Shown: in pieces, positions 36,873-57,247 of the stretch
Layout: each line of letters starts with the position of its first letter
Numbering within the stretch: the first letter of the stretch is position 1
Program-made: the position numbers and the translations under genes
Assembly (NCBI GenBank): GCA_028554795.2
Contig: JAPYKE020000263.1
Location: 2,125,001 to 2,189,000 of the forward strand
From: Sinohyriopsis cumingii
Taxonomy: Eukaryota > Mollusca > Bivalvia > Unionida > Unionidae
DNA: 64,000 nt
Direction: 5' to 3'
The notes under the pieces: model-generated
Told to the model about the DNA's origin: nothing
The model's input: the letters and a program-made list of their open reading frames with translations, nothing else
Database searches by the model: none

Positions 36873-36888
36873 GGCCCTGAAAAGGGCA
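36873..36888 (-). terminator. Histone-type 3' stem-loop 1 (in left TIR)
   Basis: The minus strand reads TGCCCTTTTCAGGGCC then ACCCA, with GAAAAGAGG 17 nt further on. It has a 5-bp stem with a TTTC loop. It lies about 140 nt past the stop at 37028 and faces outward toward the host. Confidence 0.8.
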
Positions 36889-37027
36889 TTTGGGTTTTTC
36901 TTCTTCTGCTTCTAACTCCTTAACTTCTTCCACCATCCTCTTATTTTTTCCATCATTCCTTTCTTCTTCTTTTATGTTTCTGGCATCCAGTCCGGGTGAC
37001 CTATGGCTCGGAACTTCTCTTGTATTT

Positions 37028-37504
37028 TCATCCAGTTAGCTTTAGTTTCTCTAGTTCTTCCTTTTTCTTTCTATTTTCTTCTTCTTTTCTTTCCTTTGAC
37101 CACTTTTCTTTGATCTTCTTGACCTCTTCGGTCAGCACATTCCTCATTACTTCTTCCGCTTTCTTAAGCTTGTCTAAGCCCCACTTCACAAAAGACCAAT
37201 CTGTCCATTCTACAATGTCTTCTAAAAAACACCTTACACTCGTCACATAAACTATCGCTTCTTTCAACTTATCCACTTTCACATACTGTGGGTTAATTAA
37301 ACCTCTGATTCTCTTTTCCTCATCCTCTATCATTTCTTTTACAATATCGATGGCTAAGTGGAGGCTGGTTACTTGTCTTGAGACGAAGTCTTTTGTCACT
37401 GCATGCCTCCATTCCTGTTCAAGCCTTTCTGCTACATTCAATCCATCCACCATCCAATACCAACTTCCCATAAGGTTGTTATACAAAGCTGAAGCTGCTG
37501 GCAT
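37028..37504 (-). CDS. Terminal cassette 1: helical/coiled-coil protein
   Basis: The ATG at 37504 lies about 50 nt below a TATA box (37556-37562), itself just below the shared GGACGTGAAGGAAAACATCC-type motif. The 158-residue product is predominantly helical and ends in a Lys/Glu-rich coiled coil (KEKWSKERKEEENRKKKEEL). The 3' side reaches a histone-type stem-loop at 36873-36888. Two similar cassettes follow at 37947-38276 and 38930-39174. No known domain; function unknown. Expression as a histone-like, replication-linked mRNA is inferred from the 3' signal. Confidence 0.7.
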   Translation of the reverse strand: MPAASALYNNLMGSWYWMVDGLNVAERLEQEWRHAVTKDFVSRQVTSLHLAIDIVKEMIEDEEKRIRGLINPQYVKVDKLKEAIVYVTSVRCFLEDIVEWTDWSFVKWGLDKLKKAEEVMRNVLTEEVKKIKEKWSKERKEEENRKKKEELEKLKLTG

Positions 37505-37555
37505 CGTCTTGTTTGCTTATTCCGTAGAATGGGCTCCAATGGCAAACACTGTTAG

Positions 37556-37596
37556 TTTTATACTTAAAGCGCGGACGTGATTGAAAACATCCCCCT
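37556..37596 (-). promoter_or_regulatory. Promoter of cassette 1: TATA plus shared upstream motif
   Basis: On the minus strand a TATAAAA box (37556-37562) is preceded by GCGC-containing motif copy 37569-37596 (plus-strand core GGACGTGATTGAAAACATCC). A second, better copy of the motif lies at 37637-37664. Confidence 0.7.
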
Positions 37597-37636
37597 AAGA
37601 CATAAAATTGATATTACCTAGATCATGACCAAACAA

Positions 37637-37664
37637 CGCGCGGACGTGAAGGAAAACATCCCCC
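37637..37664. repeat. Second copy of the cassette upstream motif
   Basis: Plus-strand core GGACGTGAAGGAAAACATCC followed by a C-run. Between this and the copy at 37569 lies a stretch (ATAAAATTGATATTACCTAG) repeated next to the motif at 38341. Confidence 0.8.
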
Positions 37665-37900
37665 TACTTTCTTATTTCGTATAATAAAACCCAAACTATA
37701 CTCTTCACATACGCTAAGAAACAATAAACAAACCCATAATCTACTATTCACACAAACTTACGTGAGCAGTTACAAACACAAACACAAACACAAACACACA
37801 TACACTCTCACTATGAAAAAAGAGTTAGTGTTTATATTCACACTACTCTACCTACACACATTGGCAAGTTAATAGTTATTTCTTTTCTAGAGTATTGGGT

Positions 37901-37916
37901 AGCCCTGAAAAGGGCT
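37901..37916 (-). terminator. Histone-type 3' stem-loop 2
   Basis: The minus strand reads AGCCCTTTTCAGGGCT (perfect 6-bp stem, TTTC loop), then ACCCA, then AGAAAAGAAA 12 nt later. It lies 30 nt after the stop of the cassette-2 frame, a spacing usual for replication-dependent histone mRNAs. Confidence 0.88.
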
Positions 37917-37946
37917 GGTGTTTTTTGGAACTTCATGGACACCTGG

Positions 37947-38276
37947 TTAATGGTGGCACCTTCCAGGCCTGGCGCCACATACACATCTTGTTCCCCAGTT
38001 GCTTTTTACTTTTTTGGGGGAGAGAGCAGAGGCAGGATATGTGGCTTCAGAATCCCAATTTTCGGTTTCTGGGATTCTGAAATTTCTTCTTCTTCTCTCC
38101 TTTTCCTCCTCCTCTTCTTTGTATCTTCTCTCCTCCTCTTCTTTGTTTCTTCTTTCCTCCTCCTCTCTCATCCTTCCTTCTTCCACAATGGCCTCCGCGG
38201 CCAGTTCGTTCAACAGGTGCCTGGCATATTCCAGATGCACATGAAGTTCCAACAGTTTCGCCAGTCTCGTGTTCAT
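37947..38276 (-). CDS. Terminal cassette 2: acidic/basic coiled-coil protein
   Basis: ATG 38276 lies about 50 nt below a TATA box (38327-38333). The N-terminus (MNTRLAKLLELHVHLEYARH) is clearly related to that of cassette 3 (LAKLNEAYVNLHRVRH). The middle is a Glu/Arg/Lys-rich single helix (EEEERRNKEEEERRYKEEEE). The product is 109 residues and has no known domain. The stop is 30 nt from stem-loop 2. The frame extends upstream to 38291 without an ATG. Confidence 0.7.
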   Translation of the reverse strand: MNTRLAKLLELHVHLEYARHLLNELAAEAIVEEGRMREEEERRNKEEEERRYKEEEEEKERRRRNFRIPETENWDSEATYPASALSPKKVKSNWGTRCVCGARPGRCHH

Positions 38277-38326
38277 TCTGGTGTTAATCAATCAACAAGG
38301 GTAGCTGGACTGCCGAACGAGTTTCA

Positions 38327-38366
38327 ATTTATACTAAAACTGCGGACGTGAAGGAAAACATCCCCC
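38327..38366 (-). promoter_or_regulatory. Promoter of cassette 2: TATA plus shared upstream motif
   Basis: Minus-strand TATAAAT box at 38327-38333 with the shared motif at 38341-38366 (plus-strand GGACGTGAAGGAAAACATCC), the same spacing as in cassette 1. Confidence 0.75.
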
Positions 38367-38755
38367 TAAAAAACATAAAATTGATCTTACCTAGATCATG
38401 ACCAAAAAACAACGCGCGGACCTAAAAGAAACACTCACTCACTTTTTTATACTGCTCATCACTATTCTAAAAAAATTTTCATTAATCACTTCAATATACT
38501 ATTCACATACGCAAAGCAATCCAATCCAACCCCCAAATCTACTCTCCCCACACCTCAAACACCAAAAAAGACATCATTTTAATCTACTACCCATACCAAC
38601 GTACGTGAGCACTTACAAACACAAACACACAAACACAAACACAGAAATACATACCCTCGTATTTTTAAAAAAAAAGACTTAGTGTTTATATTCACACTAC
38701 TCTACCTACACACATTGGCAAATTGATGGTTATTTCTTTTCTAGAGTATTGGGGT

Positions 38756-38771
38756 AGCCCTGAAAAGGGCT
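38756..38771 (-). terminator. Histone-type 3' stem-loop 3
   Basis: The minus strand reads AGCCCTTTTCAGGGCT, then ACCCCA, then AGAAAAGAAA. It is identical in the stem to stem-loop 2 and lies about 160 nt after the TGA at 38930. The open frame 39008-38730 reads across it, which argues against that frame being the real gene end. Confidence 0.85.
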
Positions 38772-38929
38772 GATTTTTTTGTTTTTTTGTTTGCTATGGC
38801 AATCTTTTTTAGTTTCTAAGAATGCGATGTCCTCTGAGGATAGACTTTCTGGCAATAGGTCTGCTTCTTCGGAAAGAGAAGAAGAACTCTTTGGTGTCGA
38901 TACGACAATCGACAAAGCCTCTGTCAGGT

Positions 38930-39174
38930 TCAGGTTGCTTCTCCTTTTTTTGTTTTTTGTTGTTGCTGTTGCTGCTGCTGTCTCTGAAGTCTGTACTTCT
39001 CTGTCCATTCTTCTTTCTCCCTGTTCACTTCTTCTCTGAAGAGCTCTTCTATCAGGTCTTCAGTGACTTTTAACATTCTCACATTTCTATCTCTTCTGGC
39101 TTCGGTATCAGACTGTGTCTGACCCTATGCAAATTCACGTAGGCTTCGTTGAGCTTAGCTAGATTGGAGCACAT
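38930..39174 (-). pseudogene. Terminal cassette 3: paralogue, apparently frameshifted
   Basis: ATG 39174 opens 31 codons (CSNLAKLNEAYVNLHRVRHS) related to cassette 2, ending at 39079. The next frame carries LKVTEDLIEELFREEVNREK and a Gln-run, ending with TGA at 38930, and resembles the coiled-coil tails of the other cassettes. A one-base shift near 39090 would join them, so the gene is probably broken, or the two frames are separate. A third frame (39008-38730, 92 residues, Ser-rich) runs through the stem-loop and is less likely. The shared upstream motif lies at 39241-39267; no clear TATA box is present. Confidence 0.5.
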
Positions 39175-39240
39175 CTTCGTAGGAGGATGAGTCGACAATG
39201 GATGGTTAGACTGGAAACAACACCGGTTCTTAAAGTCAAA

Positions 39241-39267
39241 GCGCGGACGTGAAGGAAAACATCCCCC
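39241..39267 (-). promoter_or_regulatory. Shared upstream motif of cassette 3
   Basis: Fourth strong copy of the motif (plus-strand GGACGTGAAGGAAAACATCC and a C-run). Where cassettes 1 and 2 have TATA, this unit has CTTTAAG. Confidence 0.7.
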
Positions 39268-39394
39268 ACACGGATTTCGAGTCGCAACGTTCAATGAGTG
39301 TCATGAGAGGGATAGTAAGAAATTAAAGAGGATCAATCAAACATTCTTATAGCTAAACAAAAGACAAAGGCATTTTTTTCAAAACACAACATTT

Positions 39395-39400
39395 TTTATT
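39395..39400 (-). terminator. Poly(A) signal of the capsid/protease gene block
   Basis: AATAAA on the minus strand about 95 nt after the protease stop (39495), in an AT-rich 3' region. In contrast to the terminal cassettes, this transcript end looks like an ordinary polyadenylated mRNA. Confidence 0.65.
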
Positions 39401-39494
39401 CAAAAATCACTTAACACTAACCAACAGCAACTCTAACATTTTTTAACAATAATCCAACATTATAACATCAAACATTTTTTTCTCAGTTCACACT

Positions 39495-40055
39495 CTACTT
39501 TAAACAGGGCTGACAACGTTGTGAATGAAATTGTGATTTCCACTGTTGGAAATCATTAGGCCATTGATGGACACTACGTTTCCTAGCTTGAGACAAAAGA
39601 TAAGCATAATGGTCACAAAACCATCGATACACTTTCACATCGTTTCTAGAAGAAGAACGAGGATCAAAATGAGTCACTAAATGTTCTAAGGAATAGCCCA
39701 GGCTGCGATGATGCAGAAAATACACACAGTACTGTCCACACACCAAGGAATCTGTGCCTTGTAATTTCACATTATTGAATCGGGTGGTTTGAGCATTTCT
39801 TCTCATAAAGTCAATGATATCGTCTTCCAAAGGGGGCAATCCGTACGAATCGAAATATTCCACACATCCTTCTTGAGGAAAGTAAACGGCTACCCAGTGG
39901 GTTCCTGGGAGATGACTGTCGTCCGTGTTGATCACGTAAGCTAGATGGTCTTTAGGTTTGCGATGAGGGAGTTCATCTTTAGCACAGACGACAGGATTCC
40001 AAGAAGCCGTATACGAACTGTGGTTCAAAAGGTAATAAAGTTCCCAGGGATCCAT
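39495..40055 (-). CDS. Adenain-like maturation cysteine protease
   Basis: The 186-residue protein has the triad of the adenovirus-type protease: His53 in GTHWVAVYF, Asp69 in EYFDSYGLPP, Gln99 in LQGTDS for the oxyanion hole, and Cys106 in LVCGQYCVYFL. In this family the enzyme cleaves capsid precursors inside the assembling particle. Its length is normal (180-210 residues). It starts at ATG 40055, 23 nt after the stop of the upstream Cys/His gene, and is the last gene of the capsid block. The frame is intact. Confidence 0.93.
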   Translation of the reverse strand: MDPWELYYLLNHSSYTASWNPVVCAKDELPHRKPKDHLAYVINTDDSHLPGTHWVAVYFPQEGCVEYFDSYGLPPLEDDIIDFMRRNAQTTRFNNVKLQGTDSLVCGQYCVYFLHHRSLGYSLEHLVTHFDPRSSSRNDVKVYRWFCDHYAYLLSQARKRSVHQWPNDFQQWKSQFHSQRCQPCLK

Positions 40056-40077
40056 TTGTGTGTTGTTTTTTTCTTCT

Positions 40078-40581
40078 TCACGGGTAATAATACGTTGTCA
40101 ATTCGATCCTGACCTTTTGCTTGAAAATGTCTGACGAATAACCGTTTCTTCGTTTCGTTTCCTCACTCTGATTCAGGAGAGCTTCGATACGATGGATCTC
40201 TTGAGTGGTTAATGGTGGACAAGAATGTTCACGCAAGTCTTTATACCACTGGTGCAACACGTCTTCGTCCGAGATGAGACTCCAAGCCTCGTCCAGATAC
40301 TCGTCCAATTTTTCTTCTTGACTCAACATCAGGCATTTATCGTGTTGAATTTGACTGGGATGATCGTTTTGACATCCATGGCAATTTTTCTTGATCAATT
40401 CCGTCATTTTTTCGGCCAAGTGTTTGGCAAAACAGCAGACTAAATGGGCTTCTTGTTCTGGCCATCTTGACTTCATTATGACAACGTCTTCGTCTTTGTC
40501 TTGAGATTCTTCTTCCACGGTCTCCTCACATTTCATCTTTAAAGTTTCTCCACTAGGTAAAGAGGGATAACAGTCTTCCAT
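40078..40581 (-). CDS. Conserved element protein with Cys/His motif
   Basis: A 167-residue protein with an acidic N-terminal region, then CHGCQNDHPSQIQHDKC at residues 67-83, a C-x2-C-x3-H-x5-H-x2-C pattern that could bind zinc. I recognise a similar 'C-x-x-C-x-x-[DN]-H-P-S-Q-x-x-H-x-x-C' block from other Polintons, where it lies next to the capsid or protease genes. Function unknown. It starts 6 nt below the capsid stop, so the two genes are tightly coupled. Intact. Confidence 0.75.
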   Translation of the reverse strand: MEDCYPSLPSGETLKMKCEETVEEESQDKDEDVVIMKSRWPEQEAHLVCCFAKHLAEKMTELIKKNCHGCQNDHPSQIQHDKCLMLSQEEKLDEYLDEAWSLISDEDVLHQWYKDLREHSCPPLTTQEIHRIEALLNQSEETKRRNGYSSDIFKQKVRIELTTYYYP

Positions 40582-40586
40582 GGCTT

Positions 40587-41897
40587 CTAATAGTCTAGAA
40601 TGACTTCTCTCAAACTGTTGATTTCTATGGTATTATCGAATTCTGCATACAGGATGACGTTCACTGTCTCGTCCAGTGGCTTTGCAAACTGAAGTTCCAC
40701 ACGAATCTGGCCAGATTTTATAGGGTGGAAATGTCCCTCGTCGCTGCCTTGGTCTGGAGTGAAATCGAAAGCCCACAAAGCATAACCTCCTGCGTAATCC
40801 TCGTACGTAATGCCGTGACTGGTGTTGGTTCCTAACTTTCCAGTGGCTTCGTACAAGGACAAGTACGACCTCAAATAATTCCCGTCACCAAATTTAGGTT
40901 CGAAAGGTCGGGTACACAAGGTCTTGCCATCGCGACTGACTTCGATCTTGGACACGTCAAAGTGTTGAAAGTAGAAAGGATTTTTAGCGATAGCTCCGTT
41001 GAAGGCTGTATTCTCGACCATACCAACGATTAAACGTTTGGGTAACTGTCCTTGGAACAGATGATCTTCGATAATGGATCGATGTCCCCTAGGAATGGTG
41101 AAGGTTTTCACTTCCACACGTCGGATCGGATACTTGGCGGTCGTTCTGCTCAACGTCTGACTGATGTCGTTTCCCACTTTAGGTAACACTTCCACGCGGC
41201 GTACGTAGAGTCTGGCTTCTTGGATTTTGGTTTTGTAATTATCGTCACTATCAGCCAATAAATGGAAAGCGGTACTGCTCCGATTCAGTCTCAGGCGGAC
41301 ATCCACCCCGTTTAGCAAATATTTCTCTTGCAACCACATGTCCAAATGCAAACGATCCATCAGTTCTAAACTCTTTCCATCTTTGATTCTGTCTCTTCGT
41401 TCTACAAATCTAGCATTGTTGTCTTTGTATGCAGCACCTTTCAATGTTTCAAACTGGCCTGCATCGTCAGCTTCCCATACCACACAGGCATTCAGATGAG
41501 TGTTCTTGGCGTCTATTCCGTACGTCAAGAGATTTTCCAGGTACGCTCGGTAAGGGTAAGTATCCATGCTGCTACTGACCAGTTTGTTATTCAAGTACAA
41601 GTCCACTCCGCTAAACAAGGAATGCATGAAATTGTTGACGGGAGCTACTAGCTCAGTGTCTATAGTATTTCCATCCTTATCTTGAACTTTGACTTTCAAG
41701 TACAAGTAACTGCTATTCAGATCGATGTAATCTTCGGGCTGTCCTTTGATTTCAAACTCGATGGGAGCGGAATCGGTCAATGAGGAGACGGGATGAAATT
41801 CCACCCATTGGGATTCTTGCATGGTCATCATGGTGGGTGGCATTGCAAACAGATCCAGTTCCGTCTTGGAACAGGCGCAAGACTCTCGGTGCATCAT
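40587..41897 (-). CDS. Double-jelly-roll major capsid protein
   Basis: 436 residues, with the family signature near the N-terminus (ESQWVEFHPVSSLTDSAPIE), then DYIDLNSSYLYLKVKV, FMHSLFSGVDLYLNNKLV and YPYRAYLENLLTYG, as expected for the Polinton/adintovirus double-jelly-roll capsid protein. Length is normal. By family it forms trimers that make pseudo-hexameric capsomers. It begins 14 nt after the pVI-like gene. Two ATGs open the frame (41897 and 41894); the conserved block starts at about residue 17. No breaks are present. Confidence 0.95.
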   Translation of the reverse strand: MMHRESCACSKTELDLFAMPPTMMTMQESQWVEFHPVSSLTDSAPIEFEIKGQPEDYIDLNSSYLYLKVKVQDKDGNTIDTELVAPVNNFMHSLFSGVDLYLNNKLVSSSMDTYPYRAYLENLLTYGIDAKNTHLNACVVWEADDAGQFETLKGAAYKDNNARFVERRDRIKDGKSLELMDRLHLDMWLQEKYLLNGVDVRLRLNRSSTAFHLLADSDDNYKTKIQEARLYVRRVEVLPKVGNDISQTLSRTTAKYPIRRVEVKTFTIPRGHRSIIEDHLFQGQLPKRLIVGMVENTAFNGAIAKNPFYFQHFDVSKIEVSRDGKTLCTRPFEPKFGDGNYLRSYLSLYEATGKLGTNTSHGITYEDYAGGYALWAFDFTPDQGSDEGHFHPIKSGQIRVELQFAKPLDETVNVILYAEFDNTIEINSLREVILDY

Positions 41898-41910
41898 TTT
41901 TTTCTGTGTC

Positions 41911-42327
41911 TCAATAATCGAAAACGTCTAAGTCTCGAACGGTTCTTCTTTTCTTGGCCTTTCTAGCTTGAAGTCTGGTGAAAGGGTGTTTTCTTCGTCG
42001 TCTCTTTCTGCCTTGTCCTTGCTGAATGCTTGACTCGGTAGCGTGCAGGGCATTTATAGGTGTGTCTCGTCGGCCCAAAAGGTCTTTGCCCGTTTGCAGC
42101 AAGACATTTTTGCCTGCCCTCATGAAGGCTTCTTTAGGGTTTTGTTTGTCGATGATGACATTTTGGAGAAATTCTTTGCCTTGCGTCAGTGCCGCATCTT
42201 TCAAGGTGTGCAATCCGCGTGTCACCATCGGTTTCAACACCGGGGCCACCGAACGAAAGGCCGATTTTAACATATCTTCTAAACCGTGTCCTCGCTGTCG
42301 AGCAACCCCTCGGAACACTGGATACAT
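41911..42327 (-). CDS. pVI-like minor capsid protein
   Basis: 138 residues with a Gly/Arg-containing start (MYPVFRGVARQRGHGLEDML), amphipathic helices, and a strongly basic C-terminus (GRKRRRRKHPFTRLQARKAK). Position immediately upstream of the capsid gene and this layout match the pVI-like proteins of adintovirus and Polinton elements. By analogy with adenovirus pVI it would line the capsid interior and be processed by the protease. The start is 3 nt after the penton stop. Confidence 0.75.
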   Translation of the reverse strand: MYPVFRGVARQRGHGLEDMLKSAFRSVAPVLKPMVTRGLHTLKDAALTQGKEFLQNVIIDKQNPKEAFMRAGKNVLLQTGKDLLGRRDTPINALHATESSIQQGQGRKRRRRKHPFTRLQARKAKKRRTVRDLDVFDY

Positions 42328-42330
42328 GAC

Positions 42331-43260
42331 TTAGGAGTCGTAAAAAAACCGTTTTCGAAAATGGAGTTTCACCGTGACTTTTCTTTTGGTGAATGGAATA
42401 TTTTGTCCCAAATCTCCTTTTATAGTAATGTTGACCGTGTCCAAATACGACTTGCTGACGGGCAAATAGTGAGGATGGACAAATTCGCGGTGGACGTGGT
42501 AAGTGTTTCCACCTTCCTCGTCAGCGTTCGTGGCAGAATCCACTTTGAAAGGAATGACACGCAGTAACGGCACGGAGGTGTGTCCCACCACGTTGTACTC
42601 CACCACATCGGAATACACGAACATCAAATTCAGTCCTTGATTCAGTTCTACTGGGGTACGAAATAACTTGGTAAAAGACTCGTTGTCGTAAACGATGGGT
42701 AATTCGTTTTTCTTCATCATGGCCATTCTCATGTTCATGTCTCCGCCCAACATGTCAAACAATTCAGGACAAAATAAAATGGACATGATTTTACTCCGTT
42801 CAAATTTCATCGAGAAGCGACGAGTTGCTTTGTGGTACTCCATGGTGACACTTTTGTTGACATGCTCCAAAGCTCTAAGAAACACGCCATTAAACCTGGA
42901 GGCTATGGTGCTGACCAAATGTTGACAACTAAAATAATAGCCTGGGGGAATGAACAAGTGAAAGGTGGTGTACTTTTGATTTTGTGAACGGGTTTTCTTG
43001 TCATATTTGACATTGCCATCCAACCACTGTTGCATTTACTCGTCATGAACTTCCACATCAAAAAAATTTTGATTGGGAAGGACATTGAGGACTTGGGTCG
43101 GGTGAATGATTTCCACTAAAGCCACTTCCCAATGGGCTTCGTGATCTAAGGGGATGCCCTGAGGTAATTTGGCCGTGTAACAGCACAACGTGTTGTGGGG
43201 AAACACCTCCATGGAACTGTCACTGGGTAAGGTTAAGTAAAATTGGTTTTGGTAACTCAT
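42331..43260 (-). pseudogene. Penton (minor capsid) protein with one in-frame TAA
   Basis: The first part (43260-43036, MSYQNQFYLTLPSDSSMEVF...) carries the N-terminal strand and 'W-E-V-A-L-V-E-I' block of the penton. The second part (43035-42331) has FHLFIPPGYYFSCQHLV and the rest of the single jelly roll. Both are in the same frame, separated only by a TAA (43038-43036), with an ATG immediately after. The family normally encodes one protein of about 300 residues. So this is a nonsense mutation, or readthrough/reinitiation at the TAA-ATG junction. The remainder is undamaged. Confidence 0.85.
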
Positions 43261-43661
43261 AATTCCAGAGTTCTGTGGCTGTCCGAGGGGTTACTGGACG
43301 TCAGAGGCGTGTCTCCGCCCAAAATGGGGTTCTGGTTGTTGTTGTTGGAGTGGTGACTGGCACTGGCACTGGACACAAGGTTCCCGTTGGAAGAGAATTT
43401 CAGGGAGGGATTGGGAAGCAGGTAACCGATGCAACTGCTCAATAAAATGGTCCACAATTGTTTGTCTCCTTGTTGCAAACTCAAATTCGCAATTTCTGCC
43501 CCGATGACACAATACACCACGAAGATTTGGCAGAAAAAGACGATTTGCGTTTTAGGCACACGTTCTCCGCACCACACCCACAAGGGTTGTTTTTGTAAAT
43601 CTTGCACAGAAGAACTAGGTGAAGGAGTGGTCGACGTAGCTGTGTCTGTGTGAAAGGGCAT
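43257..43661 (-). CDS. Two-helix membrane protein conserved in Polintons
   Basis: About 134 residues with VPKTQIVFFCQIFVVYCVIG forming a first membrane helix, a short polar turn, and a second, weaker hydrophobic stretch ending LLSSCIGYLLPNPSLK. This 'VPK.[QE]IVFF.Q' and 'LLSS.[IL]GYLLPNP' pair recurs in Polintons next to the penton. The ATG at 43661 is preferred over the upstream GTG (43670); it lies a few bases below the integrase stop, and the gene end overlaps the penton ATG by 4 nt. A role in membrane association of particles is possible but unknown. Confidence 0.75.
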   Translation of the reverse strand: MPFHTDTATSTTPSPSSSVQDLQKQPLWVWCGERVPKTQIVFFCQIFVVYCVIGAEIANLSLQQGDKQLWTILLSSCIGYLLPNPSLKFSSNGNLVSSASASHHSNNNNQNPILGGDTPLTSSNPSDSHRTLEL

Positions 43662-43666
43662 GATGG

Positions 43667-44790
43667 TCACTTCTTTTTATAGTCGATGACTTGCGAAGCG
43701 TCGATCCAAGAATCAAAACTGGGTGGATATCCTTTCCAACGTACTTTGACTTCTTTGACACGTCGTTTGCCCACTTTACGGGTTCTGCGTTCGAGAATGC
43801 TTTCGATGTCGTACACGTCGTCTTCTTTTTTGGTGACACGTTGTAACTCGGGCAAATAAAACGTTCCTTTGAGCACTTCTCCGTTCATGTCTTCCAATTT
43901 ATAGACGGTAGGATGACGGCCATGCACTCGTCCAGTGACACGAAACAATTCGGTCGTCCAGTTAGGTAAGTAACCTTTGTCGAAAGTGCGTTTGGTTTTG
44001 CCAATGCGCACCCAATCTCCTGCGGTCAACTCTCCACTTTTCTTGGGGACAGCCCTCGTCGGGACGTACCAAACAGGCGCTCAAACAGCAGAACTTCGTT
44101 GTCGGGAGTCACGTCTTGCGGGGCACGTCCGATGCTTCGATGGTAAGATTGGTTGTACGCTTGCACCAGGTGCGGTAAGATGTCGATGTACTTCAGAGTG
44201 TGGTGATGCGTAAAATATTTCCACATGCGTTCTTTCAAAGTGCGTTGAAAACGTTCCACGATGCTGGCTTTGGTTTCGGGATTCTCGGTGGTAAAAAAAT
44301 GAATGTCACGTTTCTTTAATTCTTTTTGGAAAGCTTGGTTCAGAAATTCGGTGCCTTTGTCCGTTTGCCATCGAAGAGGGTGACGACCGCTTTGTTTCAA
44401 CACCCGTTGCAGGGCTCGCACTAATTCGCTGCTCGATTTGGAAGTCAAGGGCACGACCCAGGCAAATTTGGAAAAGACGTCGATGACACAAAACAAGTAT
44501 TTGTAGCCACGATTGTAGCTGGCCAAATGAGAGACATCGGCTAAATCGGCTTGCCATTGATGATCGATGCCTTCCACTCGGGTGCGACTTCTGGCAAACT
44601 TGCGTCGAATGGGTTTGTGTAAAGTGTAGGTAGCTTGTTCTTGTAACCATCGTTGCACTTGAGGTAAACGGAGACTTTTCAGTCGACTTTTGGCAGCACG
44701 ATACAATTTTTAAACTCCTGCGTAACCTGCAGGATGCGAGGGACCGTAGTAAATGCTGGCTAAGACTTTTTCCGTTTTTATTTTTTTGTG
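43667..44790 (-). pseudogene. Retroviral-type integrase with C-terminal chromodomain, broken
   Basis: The main frame (44706-44026) contains the rve core: WQADLADVSHLA for the first Asp, then WQTDKGTEFLNQAFQ for the second, and the Glu in TKASIVERFQRTLKER. The last part (44029-43667) has the DNA-binding segment (AGDWVRIGKTKRTFDKGYLP) and a chromodomain (YDIESILERR...VRWKGYPPSFDSWI). The conserved N-terminal block (ASIYYGPSHPAGYAG) lies upstream in frame but is cut by a TAA at 44710-44712. A one-base frameshift near 44045 separates core and C-terminal parts. No in-frame ATG was found near the start. The enzyme that joins the element to DNA is therefore probably inactive in this copy. Confidence 0.88.
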
Positions 44791-49728: not shown

Positions 49729-49750
49729 GAACAGATTATGGTAAGTTACT

Positions 49751-50389: not shown

Positions 50390-50440
50390 CTTGTTCGCTC
50401 GGTCTTGGTAGTCACAATGAACTATCGATCTTGACCATAG

Positions 50441-50452
50441 CCCCTTTTTATA
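50441..50452 (-). promoter_or_regulatory. TATA box of BIR protein A
   Basis: Minus-strand TATAAAAAGGGG about 52 nt above the ATG at 50389; the stop codon TAG of BIR protein B (50448-50450) lies within it. Confidence 0.65.
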
Positions 50453-50906
50453 CTAGTCGCAATGCAGTCTCCAGCTTGTACATCGTTCCTTTTTTACGTT
50501 TTTTATGTCTTGTTTTGGAACGTACCGTCTCTAAGGTACCGTCAACATTGTACCGTAGTGTGATGGGTGGAAAGGCCATAGAAAGGTAAGGGCAGTGCGG
50601 AGACCATCGAGTATGTTCTAGAATAGCTGAATCTTTATAGATACATAGATCCATTCGTAACTTCAGTCCGCAAGCGAAACACTGTACCTCGTATCCCAAT
50701 CCTGACTCAGGTCCCAAGTAGACAAATCCTGTTCTAGCTAAAGCATGCGAAGAAGGTAATCCTTCCCTATCCGTAGGCCATTTCTGAAACGTGTCCAATC
50801 GACGGGCACAATCACAATAGTCAGGTAAGAAGACTGGAAAATGGTAGGGTTTGAACTTGGAGTTCTCATCGGGTTTCTCACTCGATTCTTGCTGTGGCGA
50901 AGTCAT
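50448..50906 (-). CDS. BIR-domain (IAP-like) protein B
   Basis: 152 residues with one BIR domain at about 22-110: 'FLPDYCDCARRLDTFQKWP', ALARTGFVYLGPE, then Cys76, Cys79, His98, Cys105. The C-H spacing is 18 instead of 16, and the usual Trp after the second Cys is replaced (RMDLCIYKD), so peptide binding may differ. A basic tail (KTRHKKRKKG) follows. It lies 24 nt below the polymerase stop. The two BIR proteins share the layout 'F-P-V-x-L-x-[DE]-Y-C-D' and 'H-[AT]-R-W-S-P', so they are probably old duplicates. Confidence 0.82.
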   Translation of the reverse strand: MTSPQQESSEKPDENSKFKPYHFPVFLPDYCDCARRLDTFQKWPTDREGLPSSHALARTGFVYLGPESGLGYEVQCFACGLKLRMDLCIYKDSAILEHTRWSPHCPYLSMAFPPITLRYNVDGTLETVRSKTRHKKRKKGTMYKLETALRLV

Positions 50907-50929
50907 CCTTCTAGCGGGTGACTATCCTC

Positions 50930-53900
50930 TTACAACCAATGTTTTATACCAACGTGTCCATACGGTAAGGTGAAATGATTGGGAAGTCGCACTCGCTTCT
51001 GGTACACGATTTGATAGACTTTTTCCAAGGGCCGACTGACGATGTGGTGAGTGGGTAAACGTACAATCTTGTTCGGTTGATAGGTGGTCACTTTAAAGTG
51101 TTCATCCTCTCCCGATTGCAAGGCTTCTTTCAATACCCCAAAGTTGACCACTCGACTGGTACGATAGTTCAGAGTCAGTCCTTTCACTTTGCACGTCGTG
51201 TGCACTTCTCTTTGTTTGTCCCGGTATTCGTAGCCGTAATTTTTGGGACCGCCACTGACGAAACGTAGAATCTTGTCGTCGGGATGCTCGTCTGTCCAGG
51301 CTCCTAAACGGTCTCCTTCGATGTTAGGGTGCTGTTGACTTGGGTGATGGATGTAAATGCAACTGTCCGTGTCAAAGTACAGGATGCGTTCTCCTAACAG
51401 TTCTAAAGCTTCGTACAATTTTAAGCGAGCATGGGCTGTCACGTAAGCCGCAATGATGACATTTCCAAAAGGGTCGTCTTGTACAAAGTCCAGATCTTCT
51501 TCGTAATTGACCAAGATCAAATCCTCACGAACGACGTCCACGTGTTTCATGTATTTGGTTTTGTCGTGAATCATCTGGAAGTAGCGGGAAGGTTCTGTCA
51601 AATACTCCGTCTTGGGTAAACACGGTCGTTGTGCCATTTTACCCCACAAGCAATTTAACATCACTTTGGCAAACGATCGCCTGCCTTCGTTTTTCTCGAT
51701 GTGGTCTAAAGAGATGCCTTTTTGTTCATAGTATTTCTCTTTGAATTGTATTTGGTCTTCGGGAGTGTGACACCAGGACGGATAGCCGCTGGCTTCTTGC
51801 TTCAGTTTCAAAAAGGCATCCACGTAGTCGGCGAAAATGCCTTTCTGCGTGGGGTCACCCTTGTGGTATTGTTGTGTCTTGGGAAAGTGGCAAATTTCGT
51901 ACACTTCTAACAGTTGGTATCCCATGTCCATAGCTTTGAACAATTCTACTCTGACCCAGGTTCCCGTCAAGGCACGTTCTTCCTGGGTGTGCTGACAAGG
52001 TTGGTCTTGGTTGCACGTTTCGGCACAAGTACGGCACAAGGGAAAGATCAGTTTGCCTTGACAATGGTGAGGTAAGACGGGATGGTATAGGTTCGTGGGA
52101 GGCAAAACTTTACACTTGATCAAGCCTTCGTATTGTCGAATGTTTTTCAGGTCGATGTGTTCCGTCAGCAATTGTGGGTGCCCTACAGGAAAGCGACAAT
52201 ATTTGCACACGTAGGGATACAGCGAACACACGTCCAAGTATTTGATTTCTTCTCCTTTCTCTTCGTCGGCTTGGTACAGCAAACAGGTGGCATTGGTCCT
52301 TCCTCCGTACAAACTATCCCTCGGGTTCAGCGGGTCCATGAACTGGTAACTTTCCACGAGGCATTTAAACTCGGGATCGGTTTTCATACGGTGATCGTAC
52401 TCGTGTTCCCACATTTCCACCACTTGGTATCCTTCCTGTTCCAACTTTAAGCGCCGCTGACATGTGTCCTGGTATAAGTCTTCCATGGTTCGTTGCAAAA
52501 ACTGATTTTTAGTGCCACGGTCAGGGTAACAAACGGAACATCCGTGAAATAAGCAACCGTTAAACTCGTACACGATCTTGGGGTTTTCTAAGTCCCAGCC
52601 ATCTACCGAATACGTTCCGATTGTCTTTTCACCCCCTCCGTTGCGAGCATGCTGAATCCACTTGTCTTCCTTGTCGCACAAGTAATGTAACCAAAGTAGG
52701 GCTTTGACCGAGTATTGACGTTTGACATAGTGGGTCGTTTGAGGGCTGATGACAGCTACGGTGTTTTCAGGCATGAATCGTTGTCGATACATTAAGGAAC
52801 ACGCTTTGGCAATGGTGCAAGCTTTTTTCAAAGGATCGACCCCTCCGTGTTCCATGAACAGTTCTCGAAATTTTCCACAGCAACGCCGTAAAATGTCCAC
52901 GTCGGAACGACAATACTTTAGCATTTCTTCCTGAAAGTCGAAAGGGTCCGAGGCGTGAGCCTGGTACCAAGCGTAGAAAGCTTCTCGTTGTTCGGTACGC
53001 ATGTTGTCGGGGTCGTAATAGTGAGCCTCAGGTAAATGGGGTAGAACGGCGTGTTGATTGGCTTCCGTATTGAAAAAGTGTGGAAAGTACCCTTTAGCCA
53101 TTTCTGTCATTCCAAACGTTTTAGGCATTCGACTCAAAGGCATGGCCAAATAGCTCATTGAATCTTTAAACTGTACTTGTCCCACTTGCATGAAAATGAT
53201 TTTGGCTCCGTTCAAAGTCACTTTAGGACGCTCGGTGCCTTGTTCCGTATATTATCTCAAAAGAAACTGTCCATCGTATCCGGAGAAATTGTGAGCCATC
53301 ACCGTGGCATGACGATGACAATCTCCGTAACGTTCGATGTCCTCTTGGCTCCACGTCTTGTCGATGGGGTCTACGACCCATTGGGCAAAATCGGCTAACG
53401 TGTTCGGTCCCCGAAAGATTTTTTCACGCCCTCCAGGAATCTTGCTGCAGTGAGGGCAATGACTGAAGATAGGTTCTTGAATGCACTTCTCGCACGCTCG
53501 ATGAGCCACGCAGAAATTAGGAATGTGAATGCCAGTCTCTTGCATGCATTCGAAATCAAAAAAGATGAAATTGCCTTTCTTCTTGTGACCGTCCTCTTTC
53601 TCTGGTGGGGGTTGGTATTTTTGCACGTAGCATTGGTGTTCCAAGTCCACGATGTGGTGACAAATGTGACATTTTTTCTTTCCTCGACATACGTGTGCCT
53701 TGGCCTTATTGGTAAGTATGCCTTGTCCACAGGTAGGGCACAATCTCAGCAGTTGACAAGCACATTTCTTCTGTGAACCTTGTGTTTTCAAATGTTGTTG
53801 GTAACAGGTAGGGCTGACAAACGTGCGCAGACAAGTTGAACAAGGCACTGGTCCTTCGCTCAGACAGGGTGGAGAGGCCAAACATCCTGGGCATTTCATT

Positions 53901-54970
53901 CCACAATGTTTGTGTTGCTCTCGATTATTATAACCACGGTCACATTTCTCACAGTAATATCTGTATCCCAGGAATCCGATGATAGTGGTAATGGTATCGA
54001 AATGGTCATCGTGATAATAAACATGAATGTATTTTCCGTCCTTAAAATCTTGGCCTCGAAACAACAGAGGTCCGCGCACTTCTTGAGGGTGCACTTTCAA
54101 GTTGTAGCGTGGAGCTAGGGCATCTTGCAATTTTTGCATCTCAGGAATGCCACAGGGTGCGTCTTTGGACAGGTCAGCTTGTTGCAACAGGAGTTCTGCT
54201 TCGTTTCGTTGTTTGGCTCGGTCCGATTGTCGAATAGTTTTCCAGGTTCTTTTCCATTCTGCCGTGTCGTTCTTGTTGGCATAGGTTCGTCCCACCACGA
54301 TGGCTCGAGCTAAACACATCTGGTCTTGAGGATTGTGAATTTGGACAAGGCTGCTCTTAATGCTGCGAAGCTCGTTCACCAATAACATCTTTTTGCGTCC
54401 GGTCCCTTGAGGAGGAGAGACGTGGGTCATGTCCAATGTGGCTTTTCCATCGGTGATGTCAAACTGGTCATTAGATTGTTGCACGTGTTGAATCTTGTCC
54501 ATGACTTTGGAAGCGGTCAATTCTGCAAGGGTGCTAAACTCGATCCAAACAGGGGATCTCAAACCGTCATGTTGTATGGAAAGTCTCAAGCGATCGTCTT
54601 CTTTGGGTTGACATTGTCGCTTGAGTGCGGTGAGCAAAGAATCCCACACCCCAGTGATGAACACTTCTGCTTTCTCTAACGGTACTTCAGCCTTGAAATC
54701 TTTAAACTTCACTGTGTATTTGTAAGCCGTGATTCTAAATTTTCTAGAGGAGCGCTTTTCGGTCTCTCGAATGGAATAGTATTTTTCAGGGTTGACTAAG
54801 GGTGGTGAACTTGGTTTAGAGGGTTCGGATTCTGGTTCACTCATGTCCTGTTCAAAATCACTGGCATGAATTTGTGCCAAGATTTCAGCCCTGGTACGAG
54901 GCGATAGATCACGTTTCTGCCTCTTACTTTCTTCTTCATCTTTCTTCTCGAATGAATAGGATCGTTTCAT
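50930..54970 (-). pseudogene. Protein-primed DNA polymerase B, one in-frame TAA
   Basis: Two frames in register, 54970-53252 (572 residues) and on to 50930 (763 residues from the next ATG-like codon), are divided by one TAA at 53254-53252. The first part has a zinc-binding region (several C-x2-C pairs at about 345-440), exonuclease motif I FFDFEC (471) and motif II HNFSGYDGQF (560). The second has exo III YCRSDVDIL (103-111), motif A YLDVCSLYPYV (D330), motif B KVMLNCLWGKMAQRP (K519) and motif C YFDTDS (617-620). Family members copy the linear genome by protein priming. The stop separates exonuclease motif II from the rest, so this copy should lack polymerase unless read through. TATA at 55017-55024. 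Confidence 0.92.
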
Positions 54971-55016
54971 CTTGAGTGCAAAACGTCAAATGACTCAAGT
55001 TTAAACACCATAGACT

Positions 55017-55050
55017 AATTTATAGTCATGGCAGACCAGCGTATATAAAA
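55017..55050. promoter_or_regulatory. Divergent promoter of polymerase and CCHC genes
   Basis: A minus-strand TATAAATT (55017-55024) serves the polymerase ATG at 54970. A plus-strand GTATATAAAAGGG (from 55041) serves the ATG at 55105. The two boxes are only 17 nt apart. Confidence 0.7.
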
Positions 55051-55104
55051 GGGTGTGTGTCTTGTCCTTTCACTATTCATTTCACTCTCAAGCCGAGCAC
55101 AACG

Positions 55105-55629
55105 ATGGAAGAGACTAGCCAAATCGAACGTTTCGTCAGAGCTTTGCGAGGGGTCATTAGAAAATTCTCTTCAGACCAGCCCACGGACTACTCTCCTTCC
55201 TTTCGAGATAAAAGTCAAGATACTTGCTATATCTGTCAGAAGAAAGGGCATTGGTCTTCAGAGTGTCCAGACCGTCAAAAACGACAAAAAACAGGGACTA
55301 AAAAAGACAAAAGTAAAGATACCTGTTATTATTGTCAAGAAAAAGGACATTGGTCTCCAGATTGCCCAAAAAAGAAACAAGAGGAGTCAGAAGAAAAGAG
55401 GAATTCTTCAGAAGAAGAGAGGGATTCTTCAGAGGAAGAGAGGGATTCTTCAGAGGAAGAAAGCAGACAGGTGAAGAAAAAGAAACAGGAGAAGAAAAGA
55501 AGTGAAGAAAGTGAGGAGGAAGAAGAGGAAAAGAGTGTGACGGTGAAGAAATTTAAAAAACAGAGACTAAACAAGGAGAAAGAAGAAGTCAATGAACTTT
55601 TTATTAAAGTGTTGTGTTGTGAATTGTGA
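55105..55629 (+). CDS. CCHC zinc-knuckle protein with Ser-Glu repeats
   Basis: 174 residues from ATG 55105 (the open frame extends upstream to a GTG at 55057, but the TATA box favours the ATG). Two zinc knuckles fit C-x2-C-x4-H-x4-C: CYICQKKGHWSSEC and CYYCQEKGHWSPDC. They are followed by tandem SSEEERD repeats, Lys/Glu-rich sequence and a short hydrophobic end. Zinc knuckles bind single-stranded nucleic acid, so a role with genome or mRNA is likely. It is one of the few plus-strand genes. AATAAA at 55652-55657 suggests ordinary polyadenylation. Confidence 0.8.
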   Translation: MEETSQIERFVRALRGVIRKFSSDQPTDYSPSFRDKSQDTCYICQKKGHWSSECPDRQKRQKTGTKKDKSKDTCYYCQEKGHWSPDCPKKKQEESEEKRNSSEEERDSSEEERDSSEEESRQVKKKKQEKKRSEESEEEEEEKSVTVKKFKKQRLNKEKEEVNELFIKVLCCEL

Positions 55630-55651
55630 ATTGGATTGTAACAATGGATAT

Positions 55652-55657
55652 AAGAAT
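55652..55657 (+). terminator. Poly(A) signal of the CCHC gene
   Basis: AATAAA 23 nt after the stop codon, followed by T-rich sequence. Confidence 0.6.
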
Positions 55658-55826
55658 AAATTTATGATATAAGGTAAGTGTCTTTGAGTTTTGATTTTAA
55701 AATAAGAAGCTACACTCACGCACTCATACAAAGACACGTACTATAGGGGGTAAAATGGGTTGTTTCTTTGTTTTTTTTTGAGTTATTGGCAAATTGAAAG
55801 GCTATCTCTTTTCGAGAGACGTGGGT

Positions 55827-55842
55827 GGCCCTGAAAAGAGCC
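55827..55842 (-). terminator. Histone-type 3' stem-loop 4
   Basis: The minus strand reads GGCTCTTTTCAGGGCC (6-bp stem with one G-T pair, TTTC loop), then ACCCA, then CTCGAAAAGAGA 14 nt further. It lies about 100 nt below the stop of the coiled-coil gene 55946-56440. Confidence 0.87.
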
Positions 55843-55945
55843 TTTTTATTTTGGTGCGGGGGTGAGTTTAAGCAATCAGCTTTAACTGCCTTAAGCCTTT
55901 GCCACGGCCAAGGCCTACTTCTGTACTGCGTAATGTTGATGATGA

Positions 55946-56440
55946 TTAGGTTGAAATCACTAAGGGTGGTTCAGTAGGCTTAGTCACAGGGTTAACGTGT
56001 TTAGCTCGGGAAGGTCGTATTCTCTTCGGTCGTAATAAAGAAGTCTGATACATTTGTTTCAGACTTCTTAACTCCGCTAAAATGTCCAACAGTACCGTGA
56101 CCGTTTGATTTTCACCCTCTTGTTTCTTTGCTGCTACTTCTTCTTGCTGTTGTTGCTGTTGTTTTTTTCTTACCTCTTCTTCTTGCTGCTGCTGTAGGAG
56201 AAAAACTTGTTCTGCTTCCTTTTGTCGTTGTATAAATTTCTCCAATTCTTCTTTCTGTCTCTGTCTAAAATTCTCCACTTGCGGTAATGAAGAAGGTCAC
56301 GAAGGTTCCGGAACAAATTCTTGCAAGGTAAGAAAATCCACAAAATCCCAATTCTCCTCTTCTGAAAGTAAGTCCGGGTTCCCTTGGGCAGTCTCCCCTG
56401 CTGGTGCACCCCAATGGATCGTTTTCTGAGTTTCCGTCAT
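55946..56440 (-). pseudogene. Gln/Glu-rich coiled-coil protein with in-frame TGA
   Basis: ATG 56440 opens TETQKTIHWGAPAGETAQGN and an acidic segment (SEEENWDFVDFLTLQEF), then a TGA at 56299-56297. The same frame continues as ENFRQRQKEELEKFIQRQKE, a Gln-rich coiled coil, and a basic end (LLRPKRIRPSRAKHV), stopping at 55946. The stop may be a nonsense mutation, a readthrough site, or the border between two products (ATG 56278 opens the second). The gene starts below a TATA box at 56488-56494 and ends at histone-type stem-loop 4. Function unknown. Confidence 0.6.
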
Positions 56441-56659
56441 GTTGAATCACTGTCGCATAGATTGACTGCACACAAGCGCTAGCGAATCTATATAGACCAA
56501 GTGACGTCACAGACTGCTCTCTTCGGATTGGATGCGGGCTGACTGAATTTTGTAACGCGTGTTCGGATTGGTGAATGAACTCAATCCATTTCAATCCTTC
56601 CTCTACCTATAAATAAACGCAGTTCACTGCATTGATTCACCTGTTCTCGTCGCTTCAAG
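56441..56659. promoter_or_regulatory. Divergent promoter at the right end
   Basis: Leftward gene: minus-strand TATATAG box at 56488-56494. Rightward gene: TATAAAT at 56608-56614. Between them lie a palindromic CRE-like TGACGTCA (56502-56509) and two CGGATTGG copies (56524-56531, 56565-56572), which are CCAAT boxes on the minus strand. Paired TATA and CCAAT boxes between divergent short genes recall metazoan histone gene pairs. Confidence 0.6.
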
Positions 56660-56782
56660 ATGTGGACCACAGTCAAATCATTCACCCTTGTGTCTTCCAT
56701 GATGTTTAGGACGGACATGCTCATGTATGTCTGGTCCAAGTGGAACGTTGTCAACAAGTCAGACACCAGTCTGTGGATATGA
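56660..56782 (+). CDS. Right-terminal small frame 1
   Basis: 40 residues (MWTTVKSFTLVSSMMFRTDM and on) from the first ATG about 46 nt after a good TATA box (56608-56614), with a favourable context (AAGATGT). It ends with a TGA that overlaps the next ATG as ATGA. The frame is short and unrecognised; support comes from the promoter and the stem-loop downstream. Confidence 0.4.
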   Translation: MWTTVKSFTLVSSMMFRTDMLMYVWSKWNVVNKSDTSLWI

Positions 56783-56907
56783 ACAGTGTACGTAGAAAGA
56801 CAAGGTTGCCTCAAGAGGACACTGATTTATGGCCCTCGAGTAAGACGCAGCTTGAGGACAAGAAGATGCCGCAGATGCCCTTTATGTTAATGGATACATT
56901 AACATAA
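56779..56907 (+). CDS. Right-terminal small frame 2
   Basis: 42 residues (NSVRRKTRLPQEDTDLWPSS and a Met-rich end), its ATG overlapping the stop of the preceding frame. The stop at 56905-56907 is only 7 nt before the histone-type stem-loop. It could be the second product of the same short mRNA. Unrecognised. Confidence 0.35.
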   Translation: MNSVRRKTRLPQEDTDLWPSSKTQLEDKKMPQMPFMLMDTLT

Positions 56908-56909
56908 TT

Positions 56910-57247
56910 CCAAAGGCCCTTTTCAGGGCCACCCATATTTTTCAAAAAGAGAATGACTTTCCATTGCCTACCCCTTTTTTTAAAAAAAATTAAAAAAAAA
57001 AAAAAACAAAAAAAATCCCATGTTCAATTTCCCTTGAGGCTATAGTGGCCCAAGACTTTTTTCCCATGTTCAATTCCCCTTGAGGCTAGAGTAGCCCAAG
57101 ACTATTTCCCATGTTAAATTCCCTTGAGGCTATAGTGGCCCACGATTTTTCTCCATGTTAAATTTCCATTGAGGCTATAGTGGCCCGGGGGGGGGGGGGT
57201 CTGTAATGCTAATTCCCATTGAGGCTATGGTGGCCCCCATTACTACT
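56910..57247 (-). repeat. Right terminal inverted repeat
   Basis: Reverse complement of the left TIR, ending ACTACT at 57247. It holds the same five subterminal repeats (about 57017-57235) and a longer G-run (about 57187-57199). The high identity of the two TIRs indicates a young copy or recent replication. Confidence 0.95.
56915..56930 (+). terminator. Histone-type 3' stem-loop 5 (in right TIR)
   Basis: The plus strand reads CCAAA, then GGCCCTTTTCAGGGCC (perfect 6-bp stem, TTTC loop), then ACCCA, then CAAAAAGAGAATG about 14 nt later. It is the best match of the five to the metazoan histone consensus, including the upstream CCAAA. It faces outward, mirroring stem-loop 1 in the left TIR. Confidence 0.9.

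Follow-up and report, generated by a model that had tools for sequence, protein, structure and literature searches.

Histone-type promoter motifs and 3' signals at the small terminal genes of a Polinton from Sinohyriopsis cumingii

The small terminal genes of a Polinton/Maverick element of Sinohyriopsis cumingii appear to be built in the format of replication-dependent histone genes and to be processed by host SLBP and U7; the probability assigned to this reading is about 0.85. At the sequence level the format is evident in three parts: a promoter motif, confined to the left-end genes; an uninterrupted short reading frame, as found in other copies; and a set of 3' signals. At the 3' end, the stop codon mostly stands 15-40 nt before a stem-loop with a 6-bp stem and a 4-nt loop, ACCC(A) comes next, and then a purine-rich element whose core and spacing are those of host H3, H4 and H2B. 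A preliminary description of the same DNA had proposed that the element borrows the histone 3' processing machinery, and this proposal is supported by Histone3 matches, by other copies of the element, by the host histone 3' ends and by the left-end promoter motif.

The DNA analyzed (the window) comprises 64,000 nt of contig JAPYKE020000263.1 (assembly GCA_028554795.2), positions 2,125,001-2,189,000 of the forward strand. The Polinton within it has terminal inverted repeats (TIRs) and is bordered by a 6-bp target-site duplication, GATGTT (36563-36568 and 57248-57253). It carries pPolB, an rve integrase and a packaging ATPase; the domains detected were DNA_pol_B_2, a Pox_A32-type ATPase, the rve integrase core and a chromodomain. 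The names of the protease and of the product of 40587-41897, which we take to be the major capsid protein, are presumptive and based on homology. The capsid protein has 691 homologs, and the named bivalve proteins among 120 of them are F54H12.2-like; for one relative there is a match to a double jelly-roll-like domain. Scans of IMG/VR with the capsid protein found no relative. In its pPolB, its integrase with chromodomain, its A32-like ATPase, its TIRs and its 6-bp duplication, the element resembles known Polintons/Mavericks and adintoviruses; it differs from them in that its terminal accessory genes carry histone-type promoters and 3' ends. All features are listed in Table 1.

Table 1. Positions of the Polinton, its histone-type signals and selected genes in the window
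Feature	Position	Strand	Remarks
Complete Polinton/Maverick	36569..57247	.	20,679 bp; TIR ends and target-site duplication
Left TIR	36569..36893	.	aligned with 56910-57247; hairpin site 1 at inner edge
Right TIR	56910..57247	.	aligned with left repeat; hairpin site 5 at inner edge
Site 1	36848..36893	-	hairpin 36873-36888, ACCCA, GAAAAGAG; Histone3 28.5 bits (at 36888), E 1.8e-4
Site 2	37876..37921	-	AGCCCTTTTCAGGGCT ACCCAATACT CTAGAAAAGAA; Histone3 30.1 bits (at 37916), E 4.7e-5
Site 3	38732..38776	-	like site 2 but ACCCCA; Histone3 27.7 bits (at 38771), E 3.8e-4
Site 4	55802..55847	-	GGCTCTTTTCAGGGCC ACCCACGTCT CTCGAAAAGAG; Histone3 31.1 bits (at 55842), E 2e-5
Site 5	56910..56955	+	GGCCCTTTTCAGGGCC ACCCATATTT TTCAAAAAGAG; Histone3 42.5 bits, above gathering score 34
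Site-1 small gene	37028..37504	-	158 aa; frame shorter than relatives'
Site-2 small gene	37947..38276	-	109 aa; stop codon 30 nt ahead of hairpin
Site-3 small gene	38772..39174	-	frame disrupted in window copy
Site-4 small gene	55848..56440	-	frame disrupted in window copy
Site-5 small gene	56660..56782	+	40 aa in window copy
Promoter motif, site-1 gene	37569..37591	-	lies within the 26 nt identical to host H1 promoter
Second tandem motif copy, site-1 gene	37638..37660	-	sequence match to histone promoter motif
Promoter motif, site-2 gene	38340..38362	-	sequence match to histone promoter motif
Promoter motif, site-3 gene	39241..39263	-	sequence match to histone promoter motif
H4-promoter word	38411..38431	-	21 nt identical to host H4 promoter
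Adenain-like protease gene (presumed)	39495..40055	-	Peptidase_C5 E 0.0099, below cut-off
Major capsid protein gene (presumed)	40587..41897	-	homology; no Pfam match of its own
CCHC zinc-knuckle gene	55105..55629	+	contrast gene, AATAAA downstream

The five hairpins of the preliminary description were all recovered where it had placed them (minus 36873, 37901, 38756 and 55827; plus 56915); they are real, lie on the claimed strands and are far above chance. Each was said to begin with A or G, but the hairpin at 36873-36888 begins with T, and its outer pair is therefore T-C. Stems have six pairs at four of the five sites (one of them a T-G pair at site 4) and five at site 1. The general form is a 6-bp stem with a 4-nt loop and then ACC(C)A, and ACCC is present 3' of the hairpin at all five. 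The downstream element reads CTAGAAAAGA at sites 2 and 3, CTCGAAAAGA at sites 1 and 4 and TTCAAAAAGA at site 5. With the Rfam Histone3 model (RF00032; gathering score 34 bits; E-values computed in 22 kb), which had been suggested as a check, site 5 exceeded the curated score; the other four sites (27.7-31.1 bits) were significant yet fell below it.

The host's own histone genes give stronger support than the checks that had been proposed. They form a tandem repeat of about 8.3 kb with H3, H4, H2B, H2A and H1, and each of the five carries a hairpin of the Polinton kind 27-38 nt 3' of its stop codon. The downstream element lies at 10-11 nt, a spacing nearly that of the Polinton, and four of the five genes (H3, H4, H2B and H1) have TAGAAAAGA. 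The Polinton element is thus like the species' own, the word given above for sites 2 and 3 being identical across host H3, H4 and H2B.

The promoter end is a feature that the preliminary description had missed. A motif, GATGTTTTC(C/A)(T/A)TCACGTCCGCGC, lies ahead of the three left-end hairpin genes (sites 1, 2 and 3), where four copies were found, each with at most 3 mismatches, and ahead of host H1 (26 nt exact) and H2B. In host H2A it is reversed and weaker (4 mismatches); H3 lacks it, and H4 shares a different word. A TATA box follows the motif in two of the three left-end genes of the window, and the motif is absent ahead of the right-end genes (sites 4 and 5). When the histone repeat was compared with the whole window, the best match was to the H1 promoter (37568-37593) and the second was the H4-promoter word. 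The longest word common to the repeat and the element ends is 26 nt, versus 12-17 nt when the repeat was simulated 60 times with a Markov model.

The Polinton genes share with the replication-dependent histone genes of metazoans (the stem-loop, SLBP, U7 snRNP and CPSF73 system) the 6-bp stem, the UUUC-type loop, the A-rich 5' side, ACC(C)A, the purine-rich downstream element at near-equal spacing, the stop codon close to the hairpin, the short uninterrupted frame and, at the left end, the promoter motif common to H1 and H2B. They differ in that their small proteins are not histones and in that they sit in a mobile, virus-like element.

The shortness of the hairpin motif and the four scores below the Rfam threshold would fit chance, or an ordinary terminator-like hairpin, an explanation whose probability is negligible and which is contradicted at the sequence level. 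When up to 3 mismatches are allowed, the 16-mer matches the window 9 times where 1.98 matches are expected, and 0 of 100 shuffles attain 9. A scan of the 64 kb for a hairpin plus downstream element returned exactly the five sites, and in 300 sequences of 64 kb simulated with an order-1 Markov model there were 20 bare hairpins and none with the element. The five are not independent of one another: the inner edges of the TIRs form sites 1 and 5, and the cassettes of sites 2 and 3 are neighbors that look alike. Genome-wide, the 21-nt core of the promoter motif occurs in 33,659 exact copies (reversed-pattern control, 0). Twelve clusters (the first 12 listed, on one chromosome) were chosen by the motif alone; 22 of their 23 promoter units have a hairpin no more than 1 kb further on, and the downstream element accompanies 22 of the 23 hairpins in this sample.

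Every hairpin had been placed just after a small gene. In the window copy this is clearly so at site 2, whereas the frames at sites 1, 3, 4 and 5 are shorter or disrupted. Three relatives of the site-1 protein (47-51% identity) are 190-195 aa long and have a longer C-terminus. The site-3 gene encodes 119-120 aa in two other copies (L089 and L090), its stop codon lying 32-40 nt ahead of the hairpin; the corresponding figures are 183-192 aa and 19-27 nt for the site-4 gene in five other copies, and 66-78 aa and 21-24 nt for the site-5 gene at ten other sites (nine loci). Of the 48 hairpins in S. cumingii copies, the window's five included, 36 are preceded at 7-40 nt by the end of a frame with 30 aa or more; three of these 36 frames are short and unassigned, at 7-12 nt. 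For the remaining 12, no frame of that minimum length ends 5-45 nt ahead. For the five small proteins, each represented by a single copy, a Pfam search returned nothing at the cut-off and no histone match; the LxCxE motif was not found among the 36 frames, and a PHROGs search with three of the proteins gave a weak match to phrog_3031 (E 0.0053).

The many small frames broken in copies, together with a promoter and a 3' end that are both histone-like, would accord with histone gene flanks that were once acquired and persist through copy number rather than use, any transcripts being polyadenylated. This account is considered quite improbable. Among 17 sites of the site-2/site-3 type in the 12-cluster sample, mean pairwise identity is 1.0 for ACCCA and 0.99 for the downstream element, neither of which was required by the scan, against 0.62 upstream; it is 0.88 in the downstream flank and 0.97 in the hairpin, the last value being helped by the scan's requirement for a hairpin-like site. 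In five sites of the site-1 type, ACCCA stands out less clearly (0.80 vs. 0.68 upstream). The site-5 gene has a median dN/dS of 0.105 (43 pairs, with dS close to saturation). The format also recurs behind five different small genes and, with yet another gene, in a distant Polinton.

That Polinton, on contig L084, has a capsid protein 32% identical to that of the window and a Histone3 hairpin (35.8 bits) 28 nt past the stop codon of a C2H2 zinc-finger frame. A search of related Polintons for the same signals, as had been recommended, thus succeeded in other copies and in one distant contig, which suggests an ancient origin of the hairpin habit or more than one origin. A capsid-protein search turned up five Polinton-like loci in prokaryote bins, of which one has a hairpin. 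Four IMG/VR contigs carried the hairpin pattern; three (L002-L004) have phage-like frames and were taken as chance, and the fourth, L001, is represented by coordinates only.

The position of sites 1 and 5 at the inner edges of the terminal repeats, and a copy (L088) that is broken off inside the hairpin, raise a role at the DNA level, in which the hairpins would belong to the inverted repeat or to replication or packaging signals and not to RNA. Sites 2, 3 and 4 are internal, however, and strand, stop-codon distance, ACCCA and the downstream element obey an RNA rule common to the host histone genes; such a role is rated very unlikely. In favor of histone-type processing, the hairpin at the opposite ends of five elements is kept at all five sites that have element sequence on both sides.

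The preliminary description had spoken of Polinton genes in general as ending in the histone manner. This applies to the small terminal genes but not to the protease and CCHC genes, which have AATAAA downstream (at minus 39400 and plus 55655, respectively). Near site 4, AATAAA occurs just ahead of the hairpin (minus 55850) and again 237 nt past it (55605), and ATTAAA lies downstream of sites 3 and 5; polyadenylation could therefore take place at these three sites. Some histone genes in non-dividing cells use downstream poly(A) sites. An arrangement of this kind, with functional histone-type signals and with downstream poly(A) sites used too or even mostly, is improbable, albeit the least so of the alternatives; it is opposed by sites 1 and 2, where the 300 nt downstream contain neither AATAAA nor ATTAAA on the reading strand.

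On the preferred reading, that of histone-type processing, host SLBP would bind the small-gene transcript, U7 snRNP would pair with AAAAGA(G/A) of the downstream element, and CPSF73 would cut 4-5 nt past the stem-loop, leaving an mRNA that ends in the stem-loop with no poly(A) tail. For U7 snRNA (RF00066), 65 of 801,960 candidates were scored and gave no match, control genomes being likewise silent; a pattern search gave 166 matches against 176 in the control, i.e. the control level, and the 12 loci inspected held no match. An intron-blind search for the SLBP domain returned no match at E 1e-3, and its controls were equally silent. From the signals we infer that the small terminal genes are expressed in S phase and that their mRNAs lack poly(A) tails. 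Expression would then track host S phase, a time at which Polinton DNA might be copied as well, and the elements would therefore act while the genome is copied. The signals suggest that expression of such elements is in part coupled to the host's DNA replication. Most likely, histone-gene flanking sequence was recruited and then multiplied with the element. That a mobile DNA virus family has adopted the complete replication-dependent histone regulatory format, promoter and 3' end, for accessory genes expressed with S phase is favored with moderate confidence.

The abstract of PMC6303110 describes histone mRNAs as the sole known protein-coding mRNAs of animals whose 3' end is a stem-loop rather than poly(A). 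Polinton accessory genes with histone 3' signals, and in part the promoter motif, would break this rule and, if the reading is correct, would be the first metazoan class of stem-loop mRNAs encoding no histones. Among the titles and abstract openings searched, nothing was found on histone stem-loops in Polintons, viruses or transposons. Adomaviruses are likewise animal DNA viruses linked to histone biology; according to PMC11071296, in which "stem-loop" occurs 0 times, their "Histoid" genes encode histone-like proteins, whereas the Polinton has regulatory signals in common with histone genes and encodes unrelated proteins. With about 33,000 promoter motifs, Polinton units could be the animal's most numerous histone-type transcription units, perhaps present at, or competing with, the host histone processing machinery. 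They would exemplify an element that couples expression to host DNA replication by cis-signals alone and would supply many naturally occurring non-histone genes from which the requirements of a histone-type gene could be learned. For annotation, mobile elements can swamp Histone3: in the genome search all 75 scored matches were over the threshold, and the 20 examined were all Polinton copies.

The Polinton carries hairpins of histone type at all five positions named in the preliminary description (sites 1-5), and a scan for a hairpin with its downstream element returned exactly these five in the window, versus none in 300 simulated windows. The proposed match to the histone stem-loop model (Histone3, Rfam RF00032; gathering score 34 bits) held above the gathering score for site 5, but sites 1-4 scored below it. 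The five sites are not independent, because sites 1 and 5, both outward-pointing, each make up the inner edge of a terminal repeat, and sites 2 and 3 lie within look-alike cassettes. The genes before sites 1, 3, 4 and 5 are shortened or disrupted in the window copy, and longer versions occur in other copies. Tandem units of ~45 nt were seen by eye inside the terminal repeats (window 36620-36790 and 57020-57190), with apparent variation between copies.

Features of the Polinton in the window (hairpin scores are Histone3 bits) and hairpins of the host histone genes
Feature	Window position	Strand	Detail
Complete Polinton	36569-57247		terminal repeats 325 + 338 nt; perfect 6-bp duplication GATGTT
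Hairpin, site 1	36873	minus	28.5
Hairpin, site 2	37901	minus	30.1
Hairpin, site 3	38756	minus	27.7
Hairpin, site 4	55827	minus	31.1
Hairpin, site 5	56915	plus	42.5
Promoter motif copies	39263, 38362, 37660, 37591	minus	upstream of left-end hairpin genes
Two BIR-domain (inhibitor of apoptosis) genes	49751-50389, 50448-50906	minus	Pfam
Host H3 and H4 hairpin			GGCCCTTTTTAGGGCC
Host H2B hairpin			GGCCCTTTTCAGGGCC
Host H2A hairpin			GGCCCTTTTAAGGGCC
Host H1 hairpin			GGTCCTTTTCAGGACC

Pfam searches of the element identified DNA_pol_B_2, an A32-like ATPase, two BIR domains and CCHC knuckles, with an rve integrase core and a chromodomain in neighbouring frames. The names capsid and protease are putative, based on homology and weak matches. 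Among the 120 capsid-protein relatives listed, those with names come mainly from oysters, and the named relatives of host histone H1 come from Mytilus, oysters and other molluscs, in line with a molluscan, probably bivalve, host. The protease gene and the CCHC gene seem to use ordinary signals, each being followed by AATAAA.

The host tandem histone repeat (~8.3 kb) was sampled as three 9.9-kb stretches, two of which were scanned with Histone3. Each of its five genes has a hairpin 27-38 nt past the stop codon, and those in the two scanned stretches scored 35.0-39.4 bits, below Polinton site 5 and above the other four sites. The sequence CTAGAAAAGA stands 10 nt past the stem in host H3, H4 and H2B and likewise at Polinton site 2; the downstream element of site 3 is spaced one base further than that of site 2. 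In host H1, CTAGAAAAGA stands at 11 nt; H2A carries CCCGAAAAGG instead.

As set out in PMC7026596, the stem-loop is bound by SLBP and the downstream element by the U7 snRNP, and CPSF73 cuts between them; the cut lies 5 nt (mouse) or 4 nt (Drosophila) past the stem-loop. The matching cis-signals suggest that Polinton transcripts may be processed by this SLBP/U7 snRNP/CPSF73 machinery. Host U7 and SLBP were not identified in searches of a kind that cannot show absence. No description of histone-type 3' ends in Polintons was found in the literature, as judged by titles and the starts of abstracts, with few subscription journals covered.

The likeness extends to promoters. The motif GATGTTTTC(C/A)(T/A)TCACGTCCGCGC is common to the three left-end hairpin genes (those before sites 1-3) in four copies, one ending CGCAG, and two of these genes have a TATAAA box behind the motif. 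With up to 3 mismatches allowed, these four left-end sites are its only occurrences in the window; the right-end genes (before sites 4 and 5) are without it. In host histone promoters, GATGTTTTCCATCACGTCCGCGC is a putative factor-binding sequence. The motif lies 105-107 nt ahead of the start codons of host H1 and H2B and is reversed, with 4 mismatches, at H2A; upstream of H3 and H4, no copy was found within 7 mismatches. The best two matches between the histone repeat and the 64-kb window were exact, 26 nt in the H1 promoter and 21 nt in the H4 promoter, and both fell within the region of the hairpin genes; from rank 8 down, some matches of 15-22 nt occurred outside the element. The longest word shared by the repeat and the element ends was 26 nt, versus 12-17 nt when the repeat was simulated 60 times with a Markov model. 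Two GGATTGG (CCAAT-like) boxes were noted by eye in the divergent promoter region of the right-end genes (window 56440-56660); CCAAT boxes were also seen in the host H3 promoter.

The 21-nt core of the motif has 33,659 exact copies in the genome (2.9 Gb, 1138 contigs), compared with 0 for the control, a number that suggests a very large expansion of Polintons. Among 100 places listed, the core matches were grouped with spacing like that of this element's left end. The host histone array can make up only a small share of the core copies, given that the histone matches listed numbered 150, a lower bound. Twelve clusters, the first listed and all on one chromosome, were picked by motif regardless of hairpins; a hairpin followed within 1 kb at 22 of their 23 promoter units (the miss being locus L094), and the downstream element was present at 22 of 23 hairpins. 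An earlier sample, 20 of 75 Histone3 matches, was chosen by score and hence biased; all 20 fetched loci were Polinton copies (0 histone genes), each with an additional hairpin-like site nearby, several with stem or loop substitutions (e.g. L008, L022, L024). The opposite ends of five elements were also examined; at L086 no element was present. Wherever element sequence lay on both sides, the hairpin was kept (5/5: L087 site 5; L088 site 4, its loop now TTTG; L089 sites 2 and 3; L090 site 3). Four sites were absent (L088 site 5, L089 site 1, L090 sites 1 and 2) because element homology ends before or within them. At L088:2500-2530 the copy is broken off within the outermost hairpin of the right end.

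For 17 sites of the motif-chosen sample resembling window sites 2/3, mean pairwise identity was 0.97 for the hairpin (a value favoured by the scan, which required a hairpin-like site), 1.0 for ACCCA and 0.99 for the downstream element; the upstream flank gave 0.62, the short spacer 0.89 and the downstream flank 0.88. Five sites resembling site 1 gave 1.0, 0.80 and 0.89 for the same three parts, with the upstream flank at 0.68 and the downstream flank at 0.66. At 36 of 48 host-copy hairpins, the window's five included, a reading frame no shorter than 30 aa ended 5-45 nt (observed 7-40) ahead of the hairpin, and no such frame was found at the other 12. Thirty-three of these frames belong to five genes; three short ones fall outside them. 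Median dN/dS was 0.105 for the site-5 gene (43 pairs, dS near saturation), 0.49 for the site-4 gene (10 pairs) and 0.27 for the site-1 gene (2 pairs), all rough values from short genes. The encoded proteins are small and charged, and matched no Pfam family at cut-off.

Hairpins of this type, for which a search in related Polintons had been proposed, were present in other genome copies and also in a distant element. Scanning GTDB contigs with the capsid alignment yielded five Polinton-like loci (L081-L085) in prokaryote bins, namely symbionts of Escarpia and Bathymodiolus, Breoghania, Bacteroidia and Rubrivirga; these contigs are probably animal contamination of the reference genomes. One of the five, L084, matched Histone3 (35.8 bits, E 8.9e-7 in 54 kb); no match was found in the other four (L082 21 kb, the rest 4-12 kb, with element ends possibly outside). 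An 89-aa C2H2 zinc-finger frame has its stop 28 nt ahead of the L084 hairpin, which is followed by AAAAAAGAGA. This locus has an rve integrase and DNA_pol_B_2, with a chromodomain match under cut-off, and its capsid protein shares 32% identity with the window's and 34% with the one from the tubeworm bin. Upstream of the zinc-finger hairpin gene (L084:840-1060), several GACGTCA sites and a CCAAT-like box were seen by eye.
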